Origin: Alkalitalea saponilacus
Lineage (GTDB): Bacteria; Bacteroidota; Bacteroidia; Bacteroidales; Marinilabiliaceae
Reading direction: 5' to 3'
Assembly (NCBI RefSeq): GCF_900168165.1
Contig: NZ_FUYV01000004.1
Span: 51,048-115,047, forward strand
Length of the DNA: 64,000 nucleotides
The notes beneath the pieces were generated by a model that saw only the letters and a list, made by a program, of their open reading frames with translations, ran no database searches and was not told the DNA's origin. A program made the translations under genes and the position numbers. Shown here in pieces: positions 50,823 to 54,848 of the stretch; position 1 is the first letter of the stretch; every line of letters begins with the position of its first letter.

Positions 50823-51770
50823 CTACTTATGAAACAATGTTTGATACCGATTTTTCAATAGTTCCAAATACTTTATTTTCAACGGTTCCGATAGGAAAGA
50901 AGCTTCAATCAGGTTTTCAGCTTTGGGTAAATTCTTGAGAAAACGACTGAATACACTTGATATTTGTTTTTCGTTTAGCCCCATCTCTTTTGCAAAACCC
51001 TCAAAGATCGGACGGGTGAGTTTGCTTTTCTTACCATTAAGTGTCAATGCCAACTCTTCTGTATCATCAGGAAGAATGATAGTCACGTTCAGCAAATCAT
51101 AAGCAGGAGCCAAGCCCCATTTCTCATGATTTTGATTCATGGAGAAATTTTTCAGGTGCATATCGTTGTTCCCGGTCAGAAAACTGAAAATTGTTAGTTC
51201 AAAGAGAAACAGCTTATCGAGCAGTGGATTGGCAGAGTATGAACCCAAAGCCTTTCCAACTTTTTCCATGGAACTTTTGTACTTGTCGAATGCCTCCGTT
51301 ATCTGAAACATATCAAGCATGTGTACTTTTTGGCCGTCCCTTGTCCGGTCAATCCTTTTTGTGATGTACGAAAGCTCTCCCGAATGGAGCCTTATCAGAC
51401 TGGATGGAACCACATTAATGCCATAAGCCTCAGCAATGCGCATGGTCACATGTTCATTGGCAGGCATTTCCGGGAAATCAGTTGATGGTGGTTTAAAGAT
51501 GAAGTCTCCACCAAGAGCGCCTACTACTGTTAGCCTTTTGCCTTTTAGGTTTTGAGCATCTTTAATGATGCTCATGGATAGTTTTGGCTGAACCCCGGGA
51601 ACGGCAATGCTTCTTTGAACCACCTCTTTCGCCAGCTCAGTCATTTCATTGTAAGAGTATGGAATCACAGGCGGTTGCGGCGAACCAAAAAACTTGCGGC
51701 TGCAAGATTCATGAAATTCGCTATCACCCGTTATGGGTTCGTAACAATACAGGCATTTATGATGGTTCAT
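50823..51770 (-). CDS. hipT: HipT-like Ser/Thr kinase toxin (HipA C-terminal type)
   Basis: 315 residues from the ATG at 51770, which overlaps the HipS stop by 4 bases. A CxxC...HxxSC motif lies at residues 6-23. The kinase core has the Gly-rich-loop region GVQPKLSMSI with an SxS pair (Ser65, Ser67) like the autophosphorylation motif of HipT, then FIFKPP, the catalytic loop GNNDMHLKNFS, and APAYDLLN (metal binding). It lacks the HipA N1 subdomain, which is encoded separately by the next gene upstream. Known HipT/HipA toxins phosphorylate aminoacyl-tRNA synthetases and stop growth. Confidence 0.88.
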   Translation of the reverse strand: MNHHKCLYCYEPITGDSEFHESCSRKFFGSPQPPVIPYSYNEMTELAKEVVQRSIAVPGVQPKLSMSIIKDAQNLKGKRLTVVGALGGDFIFKPPSTDFPEMPANEHVTMRIAEAYGINVVPSSLIRLHSGELSYITKRIDRTRDGQKVHMLDMFQITEAFDKYKSSMEKVGKALGSYSANPLLDKLFLFELTIFSFLTGNNDMHLKNFSMNQNHEKWGLAPAYDLLNVTIILPDDTEELALTLNGKKSKLTRPIFEGFAKEMGLNEKQISSVFSRFLKNLPKAENLIEASFLSEPLKIKYLELLKNRYQTLFHK

Positions 51771-52096
51771 AACTCTTCTTTCATAGGTAACACACTCACA
51801 GCGCCGATACAATTTCCACAACAGGCCAGCAATAAACCCATGCGGTCATTATGATTAATTCTCCAACTTTGAGAGGCAATCTCCAAAAGCCATCCCTCAG
51901 GTATAAGACCTTCAAAGAAAGGAAATAGCCGGTTAGAATTGTATGTTTTATTGGAAACAGGCATGGTGAAAGTTAGAAACTGATTTGGGTATTTCTGAAC
52001 ATAGGCTTTGTCGTAAGTGAACTCATATTCACCATCGTCCGTTTCAACCAATAATCCGGCATATATGTCCTGATAATATATCCTGGCTTTTCTCAT
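51767..52096 (-). CDS. hipS: HipS-like antitoxin (HipA N-terminal domain protein)
   Basis: 109 residues forming a HipA N1-like domain: MRKARIYYQDIYAGLLVETDDGEYEFTYD and SNRLFPFFEGLIPEGWLLE. In the tripartite HipBST system this separate domain is the antitoxin that neutralises HipT. It overlaps both neighbours by 4 bases (ATGA), showing translational coupling in the order hipB-hipS-hipT. Confidence 0.85.
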   Translation of the reverse strand: MRKARIYYQDIYAGLLVETDDGEYEFTYDKAYVQKYPNQFLTFTMPVSNKTYNSNRLFPFFEGLIPEGWLLEIASQSWRINHNDRMGLLLACCGNCIGAVSVLPMKEEL

Positions 52097-52305
52097 GACT
52101 CACGCGGTTTATTAATGGCAACCGGGCCCACCTCATGGCCAAACATGGCCAGAACCTGATTCACCTTATCCAGATTTAAACTGGTTTTTCCCTGTTCTAT
52201 CTTCCGTATGACAGTTAAAGCCACTCCTGCTCGCTCAGCAAATTCTTCCTGAGTGAGTTTTACCTCTTTACGGCGCTGTTTTACAAAGTTGGCTAATTGG
52301 TTCAT
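52093..52305 (-). CDS. hipB: HipB-like XRE-family DNA-binding protein
   Basis: 70 residues, a single Cro/C1-type helix-turn-helix (FVKQRRKEVKLTQEEFAERAGVALTVIRKIEQGKTSLNLDKVNQVLAMFGHEV). First gene of the hipBST operon and its likely autorepressor. The operator array directly upstream carries three TAGATATA half-sites at 40-bp spacing. Confidence 0.92.
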   Translation of the reverse strand: MNQLANFVKQRRKEVKLTQEEFAERAGVALTVIRKIEQGKTSLNLDKVNQVLAMFGHEVGPVAINKPRES

Positions 52306-52403
52306 TATATGTCTTTAGATATACTTTTTGCAAATATATGAAATTTATATCTATTTAGATATAAATTTTGCAAATTTAGTTGATTTGTATGCGAATAGAT
52401 ATA
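52306..52403 (-). promoter_or_regulatory. hipBST promoter with three-operator 40-bp array
   Basis: TAGATATA starts at 52316, 52356 and 52396, exactly 40 bases apart. The middle one is the right half of a palindrome with 13-bp arms and a 2-base centre (52341-52368; core TATATCTATTTAGATATA). The outer sites keep only one good half. On the minus strand TATATTTG at 52338-52331 is an exact -7 box about 26 bases before the hipB ATG; the palindrome covers the -33 region and the first site covers the start of transcription. Confidence 0.72.
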
Positions 52404-52628
52404 AATTAGTGGAATGATTTTAAAGAATTAGTTGCTAAATTACTTTTGAGAGCGGCTTATGAAAATGGAAGGTGAATCCGATTCATTTCCTTTGTTTTCT
52501 TTTCGTTCATTTCTTTAAAAACGTTAATTTAGGGTGTGTAAATTCCTGCCGGGATTGTTCCGGTGTTCTAGATTTTAGATATTCAATTATTAATTTATTT
52601 TGTAAATGGCTATACAAAACCTAAAACC

Positions 52629-53369
52629 ATGGCCGATAAATTCCAGAATAAATACCGAATAGAATCCACCCGTTTACAAAATTGGGATTACGGATGGAAT
52701 GCGGCCTATTTTATTACAATTTGCACAAAAAGCCGGGTACATTATTTTGGAGATATAGTGAATAGTAAAGTGAATTTGTCTGGCATTGGTATAATTGCAG
52801 AACAGTTGTGGTACGAAATTGTTAACCATGTAAAAAATGTGGAATTGGATGAATTTGTGGTTATGCCCAACCATATCCATGGTATTTTAATTTTAAATGG
52901 AAAAAATAAACATGATCCAAAAAACGAAAATATCGATAATATTGATGTCGGTGATGACGTCCATCGCAATTACGATATTGCCGATTGTGGTGATGGTTTG
53001 GATAACGGGCGCGATGACGGTAATGGTTTGGATAACGTAGAGACAAGGCATGCCTTGTCTCTACAATGCCCGCAATGCCCGCAATGCCCACCAACAATAC
53101 AAACATTCCATCCGCCACAACCACCAACCATTGGACAACAACGATTCCAAAACCAGGGAAAAAACACCCTGTCATCGATAATTGGTTCGTATAAATCGGC
53201 AGTTACCAGACACGTCAAACGTTTGGGATACGATTTTTCGTGGCAACCACGTTTCTATGACCATATTATTCGTGACCACGATTCGTTTCTACGAATCCGT
53301 AAATATATTGTAAATAATCCGGCAAAATGGAATGAAGATACCTTTAATAACTACAAAAATAAACATTGA
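52629..53369 (+). CDS. REP-associated tyrosine transposase (RAYT, Y1/IS200-like)
   Basis: 246 residues. N-terminal Y1 transposase pattern: YFITICTKSRVHYFGDIV, the HUH-type metal motif in VMPNHIHGILIL, and downstream SSIIGSYKSAVTRHVKRLGYDFSWQPRFYDHIIRD with the candidate catalytic Tyr, then IRKYIVNNPAKWNED. This is the RAYT family linked to REP palindromes. Between the two halves lies a low-complexity insertion (about residues 98-180) rich in Asp/Asn/Gly and then CPQCPQCP; it holds a perfect 28-bp palindrome in frame. Probably a domesticated or still active single-copy enzyme; activity cannot be judged. Confidence 0.88.
   Translation: MADKFQNKYRIESTRLQNWDYGWNAAYFITICTKSRVHYFGDIVNSKVNLSGIGIIAEQLWYEIVNHVKNVELDEFVVMPNHIHGILILNGKNKHDPKNENIDNIDVGDDVHRNYDIADCGDGLDNGRDDGNGLDNVETRHALSLQCPQCPQCPPTIQTFHPPQPPTIGQQRFQNQGKNTLSSIIGSYKSAVTRHVKRLGYDFSWQPRFYDHIIRDHDSFLRIRKYIVNNPAKWNEDTFNNYKNKH
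53037..53064. repeat. Perfect 28-bp REP-like palindrome inside the RAYT gene
   Basis: Centre GACAAGGCATGCCTTGTC, extended by GTAGA and TCTAC to 28 bases with no spacer or mismatch. It is read in frame as VETRHALSL. Upstream is a direct repeat GGTTTGGATAAC (two copies, about 52996 and 53026); downstream AATGCCCGC is repeated almost three times (53065-53089). Confidence 0.9.
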
Positions 53370-53893
53370 TGACAACATTTGGACAATTGGTTAAATCCCA
53401 TTCATGGCTGAGCATTAAGCTGAAATTGGAGACTCTGTTCCCGGATCAAAATGATTTATTGGATGATTATGAAAATGTGTTTTGCAAGCTGCAAACAATA
53501 CCGATACAGGAGAGCAATGTTACAATAGATGTGCAATGGGTTCATGATGATTATGACAATTCTGAGTATGTTGATGTTTCAGGTTATTATACAAACCCGA
53601 ATGAGAGGACAGATGAATACTCAAATTCACTTGCAATAGAATTCACGCCATGGCAGGAATGGATGGGAATGCCTGTTAATCCTGAATCATTGAAGTTATT
53701 TTCAGAACTTGAGATTATTGCATATTGTCTTAACGAAATGACATTTGCAGGATTTGATCAGGAAGAGATTCATGGAGAAATGAACAAGATTAGACAAATT
53801 GCGAAGGAGTATGATGAAATGACTCCAGAAGAAAAAAAACTGAACACAACCAGATTAGATGATGTTATTAAAAAACATCAAAAAAACAGATGA
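53369..53893 (+). CDS. Hypothetical protein coupled to the RAYT gene
   Basis: 174 residues from the ATG at 53369, which overlaps the transposase stop by one base (TGATG). Acidic, soluble, no signal peptide. Segments: TFGQLVKSHSWLSIKLKLETLFPDQ, VHDDYDNSEYVDVSGYYTN, EFTPWQEWMGMPVNPESLKLFSELEIIAYCLNEMTFAGF. It resembles a small Bacteroidota family I recall as DUF6557, but I am unsure. Function unknown; translation is probably coupled to the transposase. Confidence 0.7.
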   Translation: MTTFGQLVKSHSWLSIKLKLETLFPDQNDLLDDYENVFCKLQTIPIQESNVTIDVQWVHDDYDNSEYVDVSGYYTNPNERTDEYSNSLAIEFTPWQEWMGMPVNPESLKLFSELEIIAYCLNEMTFAGFDQEEIHGEMNKIRQIAKEYDEMTPEEKKLNTTRLDDVIKKHQKNR

Positions 53894-53946
53894 AAACATT
53901 CGATTCTTCAGACGTTTAAAAATCTAAACTTGCGTAAAGTGTTGAT

Positions 53947-54708
53947 TTAAAGTTTAATATAAGCATCGCTCCGATAATTAAAGTGTTCACCCAAATGCAC
54001 ATAACATAGCTGATTGGTTACAAGCCTTGTATTATCCATCAGCGTTTCCGGCATATTGGCATGATGATGACCATAAATCCAATAGTCAGGTTGGTGGTCA
54101 AATATAAGATCTGCTTGCTCGGAAACAAAAGCACTATTTATATCCGAATTTTTATATTCCTGAGGGTTGACTATATGACTGGGCACATGGTGACTTGCCA
54201 CAATTTTATATCTTGCAGTTGACCTAGAGATGCTCTTTCGCAGGAATTCAATGCTTCGGGCATGTAGATGATTAAAAGTGTTAGCAGTCAGTTGTCGGTC
54301 ATGATATTTAATCAGACGAAAATCACTGACGCAAGATTCTACAACCAAACTCTTTTCTTCAGGAATATGTGACCAGAGGGCAGTAAAGAACAAATCACAA
54401 TCGTCTAATGATACGACCTCATTATTAACCAGGAAAACATTCTCCCGAATAGCCTCTTTTACTGGTTCATCCAAAATTCTCAAGTCCTTCCCGGAATAGA
54501 ACTCATGGTTTCCGGGAACATAATATACAGCCTTCCAATTATCGGCTACATAATCGAAAAACCAATGTTTAAAGTGTTTTTTACTCCAATAGGTAATGTC
54601 TCCGGCCAGAATAAGAATATCTCCGATGGGTTTAATTGGGTTTTTGTGTAAGAACAGAGCATTTTGTGCAAATTCTAAATGCAAATCTGAGCAGTATTGT
54701 ATCTTCAT
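53947..54708 (-). CDS. Calcineurin-like metallophosphoesterase
   Basis: 253 residues from the ATG at 54708 (the frame extends 11 codons further). All family motifs are present in order: CSDLHLEF (DxH), LAGDITY, VPGNHEFY, SHHVPSH and YGHHHANM, so a two-metal phosphoesterase is expected. Substrate unknown. A diverged remnant of a related C-terminus lies on the other side of the hipBST-RAYT stretch, same strand, at 50653. Confidence 0.88.
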   Translation of the reverse strand: MKIQYCSDLHLEFAQNALFLHKNPIKPIGDILILAGDITYWSKKHFKHWFFDYVADNWKAVYYVPGNHEFYSGKDLRILDEPVKEAIRENVFLVNNEVVSLDDCDLFFTALWSHIPEEKSLVVESCVSDFRLIKYHDRQLTANTFNHLHARSIEFLRKSISRSTARYKIVASHHVPSHIVNPQEYKNSDINSAFVSEQADLIFDHQPDYWIYGHHHANMPETLMDNTRLVTNQLCYVHLGEHFNYRSDAYIKL

Positions 54709-54848
54709 AAAAGAGCAAGAATGTTTACTATTACCTATCAAATATACGATTTTTTATTGACTTATACGCTTGACTATCAAATCAAAGAAGTATATCAAAG
54801 AATGTTTATATCTTTTGATTCTTTTCTGAACTACTCTATTTTAGTTTG

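Follow-up and report, generated by a model that had tools for sequence, protein, structure and literature searches.

A REP palindrome carried in frame by a RAYT gene of Alkalitalea saponilacus, and its counterparts in related transposase genes

REP-associated tyrosine transposases (RAYT, or TnpAREP) bind REP hairpins in single-stranded DNA, with loop and stem positions both of importance for the S. maltophilia enzyme and cleavage abolished by GTTG or GTAC feet (PMC8266576, available sections). The closest described relatives of the arrangement considered here are the genes of TnpAREP subclass 2.4, among which, according to the accessible passages of Quentin et al. 2018 (PMC6006769), in-frame REP insertions between the HuH and Y motifs predominate, internal REPs being unique to this subclass, and for which the motifs NH[IFV]H, WQ and YIxNNP are given. 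The same passages deem the insertion region peripheral, with perhaps little effect on activity, and place REPs within 1000 nt of a large majority of genes, so that flanking REPs appear usual rather than required. REPs inside many other genes, including the Rickettsia RPE elements, are treated in the accessible part of Di Nocera 2013 (PMC3733652). The words inside, internal and Bacteroidetes are absent from the text of Nunvar 2010 (PMC2817692), and a search of titles and abstract openings, with most subscription journals outside its coverage, found no later publication on internal REPs.

The stretch of DNA analysed here (the window) comprises 64,000 nt of the Alkalitalea saponilacus contig NZ_FUYV01000004.1, and the gene of interest occupies the following positions within it.

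52629..53369, plus strand: intact RAYT (TnpAREP) gene, 246 aa (open reading frame; Y1_Tnp, REP_Tyr_transpos, and 4er8 profile and fold matches)
52872..52880, plus strand: HUH motif, H82-I-H84 (H82 and H84 invariant in 63 relatives)
52899..53168, plus strand: variable linker from beta3 to alphaC, about residues 91-180 (mean pLDDT by block 40-76, versus 94-98 in the parts that flank it)
52982..53037, plus strand: 26-nt unit twice in tandem, second copy 85% alike, directly 5' of the palindrome (repeat search)
53037..53064, no strand assigned: double-foot REP palindrome GTAG...CTAC, encoding V137-L145 (inverted repeat, 100% complementary)
53065..53089, plus strand: 9-nt AATGCCCGC units directly 3' of the palindrome (read from the sequence)
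53169..53222, plus strand: helix alphaC, residues 181-198 (AlphaFold2 model)
53241..53246, plus strand: subclass WQ motif, W205-Q206 (nearly invariant in 63 relatives; motif of subclass 2.4)
53304..53321, plus strand: YIVNNP, residues 226-231, with the likely catalytic Y226 (Y226, I227 and N230 invariant in 63 relatives)

Family models match the encoded protein, with Y1_Tnp of Pfam scoring 24.0 bits, just above its cut-off of 23, and REP_Tyr_transpos of NCBIfam 57.7 bits (E 1.2e-15), below the model cut-off of 80. A profile built from 63 relatives matched a single PDB sequence at E <= 0.01, that of E. coli TnpAREP (4er8; E 4.1e-09), which is also the top structural match of the AlphaFold2 model (E 1.4e-05, TM 0.62 by target length; mean pLDDT 78.3, residues 21-90 and 181-240 mostly 91-98). 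In that model the low-confidence residues, about 91-180 and including the peptide encoded by the palindrome, stand between a strand (82-89) and a helix (181-198), and the linker is predicted to be disordered. By its motifs and its beta3-alphaC insertion the protein agrees with TnpAREP subclass 2.4 (RAYT group 4): NHIH at residues 81-84 corresponds to NH[IFV]H, the WQ and Y motifs are present, and the in-frame REP between HuH and Y bears the feet of the subclass, GT[AG]G and C[TC]AC.

A perfect 28-bp palindrome in frame within a RAYT gene, set in low-complexity sequence between the HUH half and the Tyr half, was the core of the original prediction. The palindrome (GTAGAGACAAGGCATGCCTTGTCTCTAC) does consist of two perfect 14-nt arms without a spacer, translated in frame as VETRHALSL (residues 137-145), and the tandem 26-nt unit and the AATGCCCGC units bear out the low complexity. 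Its placing between the two motifs also stands, with the correction that Y226 is probably the catalytic tyrosine, given the YIxNNP motif of the subclass and its invariance in 63 relatives, which puts the palindrome between HUH (H82/H84) and alphaC, well ahead of the Tyr motif. At up to three mismatches it occurs at one place in the window and in 0/100 dinucleotide-shuffled windows, and no REPs lie beside the gene within 250 nt on either side. The fold predicted for it as single-stranded DNA is a 12-bp stem capped by a 4-nt loop (-11.6 kcal/mol, z -4.7), and the RNA from 53000 to 53100 likewise has a stable predicted fold (-35.1 kcal/mol, z -3.2).

The neighbourhood has features of its own. On the minus strand, 50823-52305 carries three adjacent genes matching HTH_3, the HipA N-terminal and the HipA C-terminal families, a split HipA arrangement that we take to resemble HipBST toxin-antitoxin systems, and a 28-nt AT-rich inverted repeat with 13-nt arms (52341-52368), directly upstream of the HTH gene start, is likely its operator. 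Downstream, a DUF6557 gene (53366-53893) overlaps the RAYT stop as TGATG, suggestive of translational coupling; a partnership of DUF6557 with the RAYT was rejected, since the compared loci show the gene nowhere but in copies of the locus in the window.

Internal palindromes proved to be common among related genes. Protein similarity supplied 110 loci (30 of the window's family and 80 named records, ranked by similarity to the window protein with the linker included), of which 101 were intact by their HUH and WQ motifs and nine were dropped (seven without a WQ-like motif, two without HUH or with N; five of the nine have a linker palindrome). A near-perfect palindrome (score 11 or more) lies between HUH and WQ in 76 of the 101, namely 19/25 in the window's family, 31/39 in the first forty named loci and 26/37 in the second forty, counted after the drops. 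An internal REP is thus not the rarity that had been supposed, internal copies having already been described for this subclass (PMC6006769), and a unique self-insertion in the window gene was rejected on the same grounds. Across the order, the generic pattern GTAGAGAC-N6-18-GTCTCTAC was found in 92/247 genomes and its reversed control in 4, with a second place in the window's own genome.

Palindrome density reached 3.14/kb in the linker (in these counts everything from the HUH to the WQ motif, alphaC included), compared with 0.081/kb in the rest of the gene and 0.032/kb in 324 neighbouring ORFs, about a hundredfold below the linker. Counted by GTAG feet, there were 54 REPs in 26.1 kb of linker (2.07/kb), 9 in 14.3 kb of 5' and 7 in 14.7 kb of 3' non-coding flank (0.63 and 0.48/kb), 2 in 37.2 kb of the remaining RAYT genes, 5 in 122 kb of other intergenic DNA (0.041/kb) and 5 in 396 kb of other ORFs (0.013/kb). 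Flanking REPs keep to narrow intervals, with 10/14 of those on the 5' side at 57-95 nt ahead of the match start (measured between REP centre and tblastn match start, which is not a proven start codon) and 8/9 of those on the 3' side at 13-34 nt past the stop.

What the relatives share at this place is a palindrome, whose sequence and frame differ between genes. The 80 type-labelled palindromes (five of the labelled sequences having been found by palindrome pattern rather than by protein, and label L129 being a double-palindrome artefact) have 25 central six-mers and occupy two reading frames (56 and 24), with none in the third, where GTAG would create a TAG stop. On a tree of 107 core sequences, built with the linker removed and with 46/104 inner branches under 80% support, the frame switches 13 times, compared with a mean of 20.7 and a minimum of 16 in 200 shuffles. 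Among codons for the same amino acid, 42/908 differ in the REP and 2798/6109 in the core, a roughly tenfold lower synonymous change from a count in which pairs exceeding 90% similarity in the core were excluded on the REP side only and in which the groups share six central bases, making the central codons partly circular; for the window's own REP type the figures are 0/125 and 337/803. When the count is restricted to outer codons, which are independent of type, 461/2968 and 90/832 differ, a smaller contrast with the core. These comparisons show a palindrome conserved or renewed at the level of DNA rather than as a peptide, which does not by itself demonstrate selection.

An ordinary conserved peptide that happens to be palindromic is accordingly hardly credible. 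Seven RAYTs do share the AAGGCA type in one frame with VETRHALSL or something close to it; relatives, however, encode unrelated peptides there in two frames (GRDAMHCVS, VEMQNFASL, VETHGRASL, VGAGFKPAP), synonymous sites in the REP scarcely vary and the segment is predicted to be disordered. This reading was rejected because frame and peptide shift while the palindrome is kept. The circumstances under which the original prediction was to fall, a palindrome absent elsewhere in the genome and present in orthologues as a conserved protein segment, were found in their first half alone. The shift of place and sequence between relatives also tells against a regulatory hairpin, in which the palindrome, in the mRNA or bound by RAYT in the gene, would slow or limit expression of the transposase. 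Such control would have a parallel in the hairpin-regulated IS110-like transposase gene of P. putida (PMC8450116, in the part available) and would draw on the strong predicted RNA and DNA hairpins, but the position is in the middle of the gene and not at its start, and we consider this explanation improbable.

REP type, defined by the four bases at the centre, switches 34 times on the tree of core sequences, whereas 200 shuffles average 58.6 switches and never go below 54, an agreement that is partly plain inheritance since the internal REP belongs to the gene. Support for cognate pairing that is independent of such inheritance comes from REPs outside the gene at the same locus, which share 10.2 of 12 bases with the internal centre (5.3 when shuffled, the highest of 300 shuffles being 7.5) and reach 10 or more matching bases in 13/15 loci, being clearly different in two (L095, L119). 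Five REP cores (A AAGGCATGCCTT, B AGGGCATGCCCT, C GCAAAATTTTGC, D GCACGGCCGTGC and E GCAATGCATTGC) were followed across 23 genomes. Type B is found in all four genomes whose RAYT carries it (2, 1, 1 and 16 copies) and in two others, with 4 copies in G054 and 3, bearing other feet, in the window's own genome. For type C there are three genomes with a C-type RAYT, and single copies in G039 (inside another RAYT match) and G292 (194 nt from one). Type E occurs in two genomes with an E-type RAYT, and in G033 (3) and G169 (1), with no RAYT match at the fetched loci; in these last two, as in G054 for type B, the first-found RAYT carries another type. The same is true of type D in G249, G281 and G248 (25, 7 and 4 copies), some copies there lying within about 200 nt of other RAYT matches.

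Within its own 4.56-Mb, 96-contig assembly the window REP is a single copy, as the genome-wide count suggested by the original prediction now establishes, whether sought at up to three mismatches over 28 nt or by its 20-nt core at up to one mismatch, and at the former threshold no population of this type was found beyond the internal copy. The core does occur in 29/393 genomes of the order, with up to 46 copies in one, making it a dispersed REP outside the window's genome; at one core locus per genome, a RAYT match overlaps 6 of the 29 (weak or partial in 3 cases), lies 42 to 1214 nt away from 3 and is missing at 20. With closeness set at up to one mismatch over the 20-nt core, and the partial or weak cases L198, L205 and L215 excluded, 12 of 18 genome/type cases, the window's own included, showed no close copy besides the RAYT-internal one, a tally in which draft genomes and the threshold let distant or unassembled copies be missed (in G277 a REP with two mismatches beside its RAYT gene falls below detection).

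Internal copy the sole close copy: G000/A, G069/A, G249/B, G277/B, G282/C, G048/C, G039/C, G247/E, G289/D, G033/D, G048/D, G054/D
Internal copy not sole: G033/A, G248/B, G029/B, G289/C, G039/E, G294/D

Taken together, the sequence comparisons show that REP type follows the clade of the transposase and mostly agrees with the REPs beside the gene, and that the internal REP is often the sole close genomic copy. Three places in the window's own genome with a related core (AGACAGGGCATGCCCTGTCT) were rejected as siblings of the window REP because their feet are GTAC, CAAC, GTTG or GTTT and not GTAG. REP-like palindromes with GTAC/CAAC-like feet were seen with three cores in three genomes (L147, L151 and L154 in the window's own; L163, L164 and L178; and the L116 linker), those of the own genome adjoining a longer repeat with an ORF that ends GLTSLFGMGRGGTPAL. 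Around a second RAYT of the same genome (G000:C48:167983-168567), the surrounding 3.2 kb yielded no inverted repeat whose arms are separated by 40 nt or less.

Locus-specific inverted flanks of 5 bp or more extend past the feet in 22/155 REPs, compared with 79/20000 in the control, and extra arms stand on their own side of the palindrome (left arm upstream in 18/75, right arm downstream in 8/75) far more often than on the wrong side (2 and 1 of 75; 0 when shuffled). Either hairpin template switching or insertions nested in the centre of the hairpin would fit both traces. Copying of one flank is favoured by L026 against L001 and L070, and by G348 against G195, which lacks the REP as well as the inverted flank; G248 and G249 both have REP-like sequence, hence no empty site. 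A clean empty site was likewise absent from G143, the one same-genus genome searched, which has about 7 kb between the same flanks: this insert (L194), matching the window at about 52350-54848, has no RAYT-like ORF, marks a variable spot and, from its ORFs as read without a family search, is taken for a type III restriction-like system. Separately, REPs were observed at the centre of longer locus-specific palindromes (L084, L087, L121, L038, L056, L176, L225 and others), L087 having three REPs, each with different inverted flanks, and tandem half-REP arms directly ahead of the full linker palindrome (L067, L055, L072, L076, L033).

Much of this could be had by passive tolerance, with REPs landing at random, a disordered linker in which they do no harm, and arms kept perfect by hairpin template switching during replication rather than by use, a reading that stands close to that of Quentin et al. 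in the passages available (PMC6006769). Hairpins are known to arise and be maintained through template switching (PMC8794818, in part), which could keep the arms perfect without selection; the inverted flanks and extra arms suggest it, the linker is predicted to be disordered, and length beside the palindrome is highly variable even among near-identical genes. Decay, too, is in evidence, 14 of the 25 intact genes without a palindrome retaining a relic, defined as a sequence whose likeness to a known REP exceeds that of 95% of codon-shuffled linkers (sought with REPs of even length, at 40 shuffles apiece), and 11 having none by the same test. Against it, the linker is 3.3 and 4.4 times denser in GTAG-footed REPs than the 5' and 3' non-coding flanks, where no reading frame has to be kept, such REPs are almost absent from other ORFs, and a near-perfect internal copy persists in the 12 cases that have no other close copy. 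Passive tolerance is an explanation we hold possible but doubtful; the linker excess suggests something more, either retention or preferred re-insertion at a resident hairpin.

The explanation we favour, with moderate confidence, is that the window gene is a subclass 2.4 RAYT and the palindrome its cognate double-foot REP, held in frame in the sole part of the protein that tolerates it, with binding and reinsertion inferred. A double-foot palindrome would offer GTAG on both strands, and the transposase, acting in cis, would bind the hairpin wherever its own gene or the flanks are single-stranded, repeatedly inserting or renewing its REP there. Insertions elsewhere in the gene would break it, while those in the flanks, or in the linker in two of three frames, would survive; the linker copy, sharing the fate of the gene, would last longest, outlive dispersed copies and travel with the transposase, so that the gene always carries its own target along. 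Weighing against this account are the copies of types B, D and E in genomes whose first-found RAYT is of another type, the two loci whose outside REPs differ in type, the 25 intact genes with no near-perfect palindrome, 11 of them devoid of a relic too, and the lack of REPs beside the window gene itself. Among the three possibilities originally raised for the internal palindrome (self-targeted insertion, an mRNA hairpin and a source for dispersal), self-targeted insertion or renewal fits best; a source for dispersal is possible, and stays at that because the window's genome has no dispersed copy.

A bolder and rather speculative extension, to which we give slightly less credence than to passive tolerance, would make gene and REP a self-contained replicator pair. 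The in-frame hairpin would be a protected founder copy under element-level selection, genomes with a single copy would be dormant or newly seeded hosts in which a REP population can restart, and new REPs would prefer the tip of the resident hairpin, renewing the copy and leaving nested arms and inverted flanks. The matter bears on how REPs spread and on what holds RAYT and REP together: a transposase gene that contains its likely recognition hairpin pairs enzyme with target for many clades at once, and RAYT specificity would then be predictable from sequence.

Among known systems, IS200/IS605 TnpA has its fold and Pfam family in common with the window RAYT, but belongs to insertion sequences with subterminal hairpins, whereas 52400-53700 of the window holds, besides the palindrome, just two short imperfect inverted pairs. 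E. coli TnpAREP with its REP (4er8) is the best match by profile and by fold; in the passages of PMC6006769, however, it is assigned to subclass 2.2, whose REPs have bulged stems, and internal REPs are confined to 2.4. The GTAG REPs and RPE elements (PMC3733652, in the part available) are similar as palindromic repeats translated in frame within coding genes, and differ in affecting many unrelated genes, often of DNA repair, while the RAYT case concerns one place in the transposase itself. With subclass 2.4 as characterised in those passages, the window gene shares the HUH, WQ and Y motifs, the variable beta3-alphaC insertion, the double-foot REP and its in-frame internal position, differing in the absence of an adjacent REP and of a second REP copy in the assembly; beyond the passages, the present work adds counts of frame, synonymous change and sole copies. 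The arrangement is thus of a known kind, and these quantitative comparisons speak for the internal REP as a DNA element that forms a pair with the transposase encoded around it.
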